Source: Candidatus Segetimicrobium genomatis (GTDB taxonomy: Bacteria > Sysuimicrobiota > Sysuimicrobiia > Sysuimicrobiales > Segetimicrobiaceae). From it: a stretch of 64,000 nucleotides of DNA. The DNA is taken from contig VBAK01000115.1 in NCBI GenBank assembly GCA_005882275.1, positions 23,804 through 87,803 of the forward strand, written 5' to 3'. The number at the start of each line of letters is the position of its first letter. Positions within the stretch are counted from its first letter, which is position 1. Below are positions 60,163 through 62,241 of this stretch, piece by piece. The translations under genes and the position numbers were made by a program. The notes beneath the pieces are model-generated. The model had not been told where the DNA came from, ran no database searches, and saw nothing but the letters and a program-made list of their open reading frames with translations.

Positions 60163-60253
60163 GGAGGGGTGGCCGAGCGGTCCAAGGCGACGGTTTGCTA
60201 AACCGTGACCCTTTAACCGGGGTCCGTGGGTTCGAATCCCACCCCCTCCGCCA
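60163..60253 (+). tRNA. tRNA-Ser (anticodon GCU)
   Basis: Class II cloverleaf GGAGGGGTGGCCGAGCGGTCCAAGGCGACGGTTTGCTAAACCGTG...GGGTTCGAATCCCACCCCCTCCGCCA. Confidence 0.96.
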
Positions 60254-60264
60254 ATTCATCTCCC

Positions 60265-61260
60265 ATGAATGCCTCCGACGATTACAGCCAGAAGGGCCCT
60301 GCGGTTGGGTCGACGTTCCCCGATGTCCGCCTGCCCGACCAGACCGGAGGGTCGGTGGACCTGCACGCTGCCAGACGGGGGCGACAGGCCGTCGTCGTCT
60401 TCTATCGGAGCGCCCTATGGTGACCATTCTGTAAGACGCAGCTCGTCGAGCTGCAGAAGATCACAGGAGACCTCGACGCCAAGGGGATCGCACTCTTCGC
60501 CATCAGTTACGATTCCGTCGAGGCGCTGGCAAGCTTTTCGGCTAAACAGGGCATCACCTACCCGTTGCTGTCGGATCAGGGGAGCCGCGTGATCCGGGAG
60601 CTCGGGCTCCTCGACGAACACCTCGACCGCCACCACGCCGAGTTCGGGCGGCCCGTCCGGGACGACCAACGGGGCGTCGCCTACCCGAGCGTTTTCCTGC
60701 TCGATGCCGGCGGGATGGTGGTGCGAAAGCGGGCGCACCGCAACTACCGGATCCGGGACACCGGGGCGGGGCTGGTCGAGGAGATGCTCGGCGGCACGGC
60801 CTCAGCGCACGGCGTCGAAGCTGCCGCCGATGACGAGGTCGTGCGGATACGAGCCTACCTCGATTCGCCGACGTACCGCTGGTACCAACGGCTGCGCGTC
60901 GTCGTGGACGTGGCGGTTCAGGACGGATACCACATCTACGGGACGCCGATCCCGGAGGGGTATGTGCCCTTGAGCGCGGCCATCGATCCCATCGACGGGC
61001 TGGAGGTGGGTGAGGCCGACTGGCCGCGGCCCCATCCCTTCCGTGAGAGCGGGCTCTCGGAGGAGTTTTGGGTCCACGAGGGGACCGTGCGCGGGAGCAT
61101 CCCGCTGATGTTCACGAAGGACGGCACGGGGGATCACCGCATCCGCGTCACCGTGCGGTACCAGGCATGCAGTGCGACCGCGTGCCTGCCGCCGGCCCAC
61201 GTCCGGTTCGAGCTCCCGGTGCACGAAGTCGCGGCGGTCGACGCGCCGGCCAAGCAGTAG
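60265..61260 (+). CDS. Selenoprotein: peroxiredoxin/redoxin-like (UPFC) fused to DsbD-N-like domain; Sec at UGA 60421-60423
   Basis: Read-through ...GRQAVVVFYRSALWUPFCKTQLVELQKITGDLDAKGIALFAISYDSVEAL...; same frame before and after UGA; C-terminal VRYQACSATACLPPAHVRFELPV. ORF track splits it into 60226-60423 and 60565-61260. Confidence 0.93.
60438..60454 (+). promoter_or_regulatory. Candidate bacterial SECIS hairpin
   Basis: GCAGCTC-GTC-GAGCTGC perfect 7-bp stem, starting 14 nt after the in-frame UGA. Confidence 0.6.
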
Positions 61261-61310
61261 ATCCGATCCGCAAGGCTCGTGCCACGGAACCACACCGCCT
61301 CTTGACGAAG

Positions 61311-61330
61311 TTAGTCTTATATGGTACTAA
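61311..61330. promoter_or_regulatory. Palindromic operator candidate (TTAGTnnnATATnnnACTAA)
   Basis: 20-bp interrupted palindrome just downstream of TTGACG, upstream of the SRPBCC-MarR pair. Confidence 0.5.
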
Positions 61331-61376
61331 TCTATCATCTCGGGCTTGTCGGTCGCCGCCGGAGAGGAGAGTGCGA

Positions 61377-61784
61377 ATGAGGGCCAACACGGAGCACGTC
61401 ACCATCAATGTCGACCACCGCCACCTGTTTGCGTTCCTTGCCGACCCCGGCAACCTTCCCAAATGGGCCGTGGGTTTTTGCCGGGCGATTCGGCGAGACG
61501 GAGATCGCTGGTTCGTCCAGACGCCCCAGGGTGAAGTGGCCATCCGCTACCTTACCAACCCCAATCTGGGGACCATTGATTTCTACATCTCCCTTGGGCC
61601 GGGGATTGAAGTGGCCGCATTCTCGCGCATCATGCCAAACGGCAACGGATCTGAGTACGTCTTCACGCAGTTTCAAGCCTCGTCAATCTCCGATGATGTG
61701 TTCGAGGCCCAAGTCCGCGCGTTGAAAGAAGAACTGGTGGTGCTCAGGGCCCTCATGCATGCGCAGGCAGCCTGCCCCGCCTGA
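61377..61784 (+). CDS. SRPBCC-like protein
   Basis: ANTEHVTINVDHRHLFAFLADPGNLPKWAVGFCRAI START-like beginning. Confidence 0.75.
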   Translation: MRANTEHVTINVDHRHLFAFLADPGNLPKWAVGFCRAIRRDGDRWFVQTPQGEVAIRYLTNPNLGTIDFYISLGPGIEVAAFSRIMPNGNGSEYVFTQFQASSISDDVFEAQVRALKEELVVLRALMHAQAACPA

Positions 61785-62241
61785 GCCCACGACGGGAAGC
61801 CAAGCAACAACTCGGGCGACTCGCGAGAACCTCGGGTTCCTCCTGGCGAAGGCGTCGCAGCGGTGGAACGAGATGCTCTACGAAGCATTTCGTCGGGCGG
61901 GATATAGAGATGTGAGGCCCGCCCACGGGTCAATTCTGATCCCGCTCTTTGAAGAAGACGGGTTACGCATGGGGGAGCTGGCGAAACGATCTAGGCTTAG
62001 CAAGCAGACCATGACCGCCCTGATCAGGATCATGAAGCAAAGGAAGCTTATCCTCCGCCGCCGTGACCCGGTCGATGCCCGCGCATCCAGAATCTACCTG
62101 ACGCCTCGCACCCGCCGGTTCAAACCAGTGGTAGAGAGAATCCTCCGAGAGATGGATGAGAGTGTCGAAGCGAGACTCACATCAGGGCGCTACGCGCAGG
62201 TTACAGCAGCTCTCAAAGTGGTCATGAACCTCACGCGTTAG
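61759..62241 (+). CDS. MarR family transcriptional regulator
   Basis: GELAKRSRLSKQTMTALIRIMKQRKLILRRRDPVDARASRIYLTPRTR wHTH with wing. Confidence 0.88.
   Translation: MRRQPAPPEPTTGSQATTRATRENLGFLLAKASQRWNEMLYEAFRRAGYRDVRPAHGSILIPLFEEDGLRMGELAKRSRLSKQTMTALIRIMKQRKLILRRRDPVDARASRIYLTPRTRRFKPVVERILREMDESVEARLTSGRYAQVTAALKVVMNLTR

Follow-up and report, generated by a model that had tools for sequence, protein, structure and literature searches.

In the window (the whole 64,000-nt stretch of Candidatus Segetimicrobium genomatis DNA analyzed here), a tRNA-Ser gene is followed on the same strand by a reading frame whose sole interruption is an in-frame TGA at codon 53 and which ends at TAG 61258–61260 (Table 1). 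The earlier note had described a frame broken at this TGA and a 331-aa protein when it is read through; both were confirmed, and the read-through frame at 60265–61260 is far beyond chance. ATG 60265 is the sole plausible in-frame start 5' of the conserved region because it sits 11 nt past the tRNA, and the nearest in-frame start further upstream falls within the tRNA itself. The tRNA has an encoded CCA, and no clear Shine–Dalgarno sequence precedes the ATG. The two genes are possibly co-transcribed, and tRNA 3' processing might release the selenoprotein mRNA. No tRNA was found in the flanks of the relatives' genes, and a rough ORF listing of their neighbors revealed no obvious shared operon. 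On the 3' side of the gene (61300–62241), an AT-rich stretch, gttagtcttatatggtactaatct, is followed by frames named SRPBCC-like and MarR-like from a reading of their translations; this stretch is perhaps the operator of the MarR-like regulator itself.

Table 1. Features of the locus in window coordinates.
Feature	Coordinates	Strand	Basis
tRNA-Ser(GCT)	60163..60253	+	ARAGORN; 11 nt before the selenoprotein start codon
Predicted selenoprotein CDS, 331 aa	60265..61260	+	ATG to TAG, single in-frame TGA read as Sec
Redoxin / AhpC-TSA domain, residues 14–160	60304..60744	+	Pfam PF00578 and PF08534
Predicted Sec codon TGA (U53), position 1 of UPFC	60421..60423	+	TGA at the equivalent codon in 12 further loci
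Cys56 codon, second redox residue of UxxC	60430..60432	+	Invariant in alignment
Bacterial SECIS-type hairpin	60438..60454	+	Fold and covariation; 7-bp stem GCAGCUC/GAGCUGC, loop GUC 60445–60447
DsbD_N (DsbD alpha-like) domain, residues 210–315	60892..61209	+	PF11412 in 11/11 members
C302...C307 (CxxxxC) pair of the DsbD_N-like domain	61168..61185	+	Both Cys invariant, 11/11

Could the TGA simply be a stop? Under translation table 11, a single long frame remains, 231 aa from TTG 60565, which covers the C-terminal part, as would be expected if the locus were a pseudogene or encoded two proteins with an internal start such as this TTG. However, an internal start would halve the redoxin fold, and the codon itself is shared. 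Among 43 genomes of the window's phylum, 13 contain a family match at E <= 1e-20, and in 12 of these 13, the window's own included, TGA stands at the equivalent codon; G003 has, in addition, a fragment at a contig end with this TGA. Consequently, all 13 loci with the interruption (the window and 12 further loci, from one order) have TGA, never TAA or TAG, with both flanks conserved. Purifying selection acts alike on the two sides of the TGA, with dN/dS values (NG86, nine pairs) of 0.14–0.29 before it and 0.19–0.32 after it, which are rough because dS often exceeds 1. A real stop at this position is thus highly improbable.

The sole exception is a divergent copy in G013, which reads C-W where W-U stands elsewhere. 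This copy (L075, G013:C36:11919-12557) contains ADCWPYC, and its open frame stops inside the DsbD_N part; it is probably a decaying copy that has lost the Sec codon.

The TGA column is aligned not only with the UGA of the 12 further loci but also with Cys in single-domain relatives, the WUPFC of the window protein falling exactly on their WCPFC or WCPYC. An in-frame UGA is thus found at a redox position that is occupied by Sec or Cys in homologues, as in bacterial selenoproteins. The conserved context around Sec is W-U-x-x-C-K-x-Q-L-V-E-L, with the motif UPFC or UPYC preceded by W.

Furthermore, just 3' of the UGA lies a hairpin whose small apical loop contains G; such a loop guanosine is described as the feature that bacterial SECIS elements share (PMC1088965). 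The hairpin begins 14 nt past the TGA, and in 12 of 12 readable members its 7-bp stem is capped by a GUN loop. In the 12 fusion genes, 84/84 stem cells pair, and two pairs have changed on both sides; when three single-domain relatives are added (n = 15), 99% of cells are paired and four pairs have changed on both sides. None of 500 shuffles of the n = 15 set matched the observed percentage paired, the covariation score or the number of pairs changed on both sides. Since shuffles do not model relatedness, the weight is carried by these double changes and by the slid controls (18–40% paired, none comparable to the hairpin). Part of the conservation reflects protein constraint, as the hairpin also encodes QLVEL. 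The codons, on the other hand, are specific: Leu60 is CTC in 11/11 full-length genes (the gene-wise frequencies multiply to 8e-6, uncorrected for common descent), and Leu63 is always CTG or TTG, choices that are demanded by stem pairing. In single-domain UGA genes of another phylum, a similar hairpin lies equally far from the UGA, its stem differing in sequence (in L090, GCAGCTG-GTC-CAGCTGC). The Rfam model SECIS_1 (RF00031) found no match in the genome, a result that is uninformative because the control genomes were likewise without a match.

The window genome is a single draft assembly with a contamination of 5.9%, and the TGA might, in principle, be an assembly or sequencing error for TGC or TGT. 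The probability of this is close to negligible, since the identical TGA occurs in 12 further loci of separate genomes and a covarying hairpin has no reason to follow a Cys codon; in one Cys relative from the other phylum, folded from the Cys codon, the hairpin is absent. We rejected both a pseudogene and an assembly error on the basis of the shared TGA codon, the constraint after it and the covarying hairpin.

The genome also contains the machinery of bacterial selenoprotein synthesis, all four of selA, selB, selC and selD being found. Contig C11 carries selA, selB and tRNA-Sec (anticodon TCA) within a short distance of each other, and selD is on C81, itself with one in-frame TGA, like the selD of nearly all relatives. 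Among the UGA-carrying relatives, no selA scored over the cut-off in G018 (93% complete), G036 (77%) and G003 (68%), and only selA fragments were found in G017 (72%), gaps that are likely due to incomplete assembly. Taken with the Sec homologues and the SECIS-type hairpin, the presence of selA, selB, selC and selD strongly supports the proposal of the earlier note that a hidden selenoprotein is encoded here, and these comparisons make it almost certain that the UGA at codon 53 is read as selenocysteine.

A second complete selA-selB-tRNA-Sec-selD set lies on contig C34 of the window genome, G000 (3.6–8.5 kb; L004, L011, L059). Its selB scores 452 bits, compared with at most 386 in relatives, and its selD lacks the TGA that nearly all relatives have in theirs. 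This set may be a contamination or a transferred operon.

The read-through protein has two domains, a redoxin and a DsbD-N-like domain, as had been noticed from its sequence. The Pfam AhpC-TSA match in the window protein (residues 14–153, E 6.5e-27) crosses the TGA, and the DsbD_N match has E 8.3e-12; both domains were detected by Pfam in all 11 full-length proteins used for alignment. In this alignment, all four redox residues, U53, C56, C302 and C307, are invariant, the last two lying within YQACSATACLPP in the window protein. The PDB sequence search with the C-terminal domain yielded no match, and the single-sequence AlphaFold model of the window protein (pLDDT 38) was discarded. In NCBIfam, the protein falls below the cut-off of every model; it comes nearest to a thiol peroxidase model (50.8 of 140 bits) and the SelL-related model discussed below.

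Roughly one in four sampled genomes of the window's phylum carries the fusion, which forms two subgroups. One (family f1) has a 9-residue insertion before GVAYP and is 56–61% identical to the window protein; the other is broader (~30% identity) and includes G002, which belongs to the same genus. Among the 386 genomes sampled around the window, every full-length fusion is confined to the window's own order, and the best match outside it is a single-domain UGA redoxin in G180. A search through 68 genomes of G180's phylum found no fusion; the redoxins recovered there were single-domain, four with UGA and one with Cys. The four with UGA (L087, L088, L089, L090) are apparently exported and have UGA at WUPFC or WUPYC, with the hairpin at the same distance. 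A further redoxin, L044 (G089:C9:76107-76427), has two in-frame TGA codons and reads WUPKU, the UxxU form of Prx-like selenoproteins. A contig scan with the window protein as the single query found two distant redoxins only, and plasmid tblastn gave matches to the redoxin domain only, none covering 80%.

By its AhpC-TSA match and UxxC motif, the N-terminal domain is of the already known Prx-like UxxC kind. Such selenoproteins were described in 2005 as distant Prx homologues in which UXXC replaces TXXU (PMC1088965), and a 2026 review lists them as predicted Prx-like thiol:disulfide oxidoreductases (PMC13188914). The window protein shares with this group (PF00578, UxxC/UxxU) the AhpC/TSA domain, Sec as the first residue of UxxC and a bacterial SECIS whose small apical loop contains G; however, the listed members have the AhpC/TSA domain only, whereas the window protein adds a C-terminal DsbD_N. 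It also shares the redoxin domain and UxxC with the metagenomic Redoxin family protein (PF08534; PMC9312934, PMC13188914), a comparison by table entry, the tables being silent on further domains. The SelL-related redox protein model (NF040769), which represents a redoxin-like domain, matches 11/11 members, but it is a single-domain model of ~173 positions, and the window protein scores 35.7 bits, below its cut-off of 120. The earlier note called the head a Sec peroxidase; its motif, however, is the UxxC of Prx-like thiol:disulfide oxidoreductases (UPFC or UPYC after W), not the TxxU of Sec-peroxiredoxins. Peroxidase activity is only one option, as UxxC gives peroxidase action no preference over thiol:disulfide exchange.

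The C-terminal domain resembles the N-terminal domain of DsbD, nDsbD, which in E. coli passes electrons to Trx-fold partners via C103 and C109 (PMC7347389). The two share the DsbD_N profile match and a conserved Cys pair towards the C-terminal boundary of the domain, although the spacing is CxxxxC in the window protein and CxxxxxC in E. coli DsbD. Unlike DsbD, the window protein has no membrane domain, no C-terminal Trx domain and apparently no signal peptide. By hydropathy, none of the 11 fusion members has a hydrophobic N terminus or transmembrane segment, the highest 19-residue mean in any of them being 1.34; the fusion protein is therefore probably cytosolic. The single-domain proteins of G180's phylum, by contrast, start with hydrophobic, signal-like stretches, as judged by eye and, in the case of G180, by hydropathy. 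A selenoprotein fusion with a DsbD-related part is also known in TsoB, the rhodanese/DsbD fusion-like selenoprotein (NF045694) and the one DsbD-related fusion in the review table (PMC13188914); however, TsoB has a rhodanese head with UxxxxU rather than a redoxin with UxxC, and the window protein does not match NF045694.

What appears to be new is the C-terminal DsbD_N fusion with its invariant CxxxxC pair, which we did not find described; outside the phylum, only single-domain relatives were found. No redoxin–DsbD_N selenoprotein was encountered in the literature, although subscription papers lay mostly outside the search and this absence is no proof.

Could the tail serve as the redox partner of its own head? 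The comparative evidence indicates that SelB and tRNA-Sec decode the UGA at codon 53 as selenocysteine, directed by the downstream hairpin. U53 of the redoxin domain would then attack an oxidized substrate (a peroxide, a disulfide or similar), and C56, as the UxxC motif implies, would resolve U53 into a selenylsulfide. With less confidence, C302/C307 would most likely exchange electrons with this U53–C56 selenylsulfide, so that the protein would carry its own docking redox partner, analogous to nDsbD with thioredoxin-fold partners. Because C103/C109 of nDsbD serve Trx-fold partners, the fold class to which the redoxin head belongs, the fused pair would be a natural donor and acceptor. A relay between Sec/Cys and a Cys pair within one chain is plausible; the self-contained thiol relay suggested in the earlier note would, given the apparent lack of a signal peptide, operate in the cytosol, unlike DsbD. 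The final donor is probably thioredoxin, which could reduce the protein given its predicted cytosolic placement.

Alternatively, the protein may be a genuine selenoprotein in which the DsbD_N-like Ig-fold is a binding or targeting module, its Cys pair being structural or reserved for another partner. The Cys spacing unlike that of E. coli DsbD and the poorly conserved linker between the domains would fit such a module; nevertheless, both Cys residues, the QAC motif and the Pro after it are invariant across strongly diverged members, as in a redox site, and we regard this alternative as rather unlikely. We favor, with moderate confidence in the statement as a whole, a two-domain, probably cytosolic selenoprotein with a SelB-decoded UGA and an internal C302/C307 relay. 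The further proposal that it represents a phylum-specific cytosolic single-chain relay, in which a Sec/Cys redoxin head regains its electrons from the DsbD-alpha-type Ig-fold tail attached to it, is put forward only tentatively.

Gene callers cut the frame at the UGA, and annotation therefore either omits a conserved redox enzyme of the phylum or shows only half of it. The physiological reductant of the UxxC Prx-like selenoproteins was not established in the literature searched; the fusion points to a likely partner, which can be tested within a single recombinant chain. A DsbD_N-type domain in an apparently cytosolic protein is an unusual setting, and the single-chain relay, if true, would mean that nDsbD-like modules have been taken from the envelope and linked with selenium chemistry.
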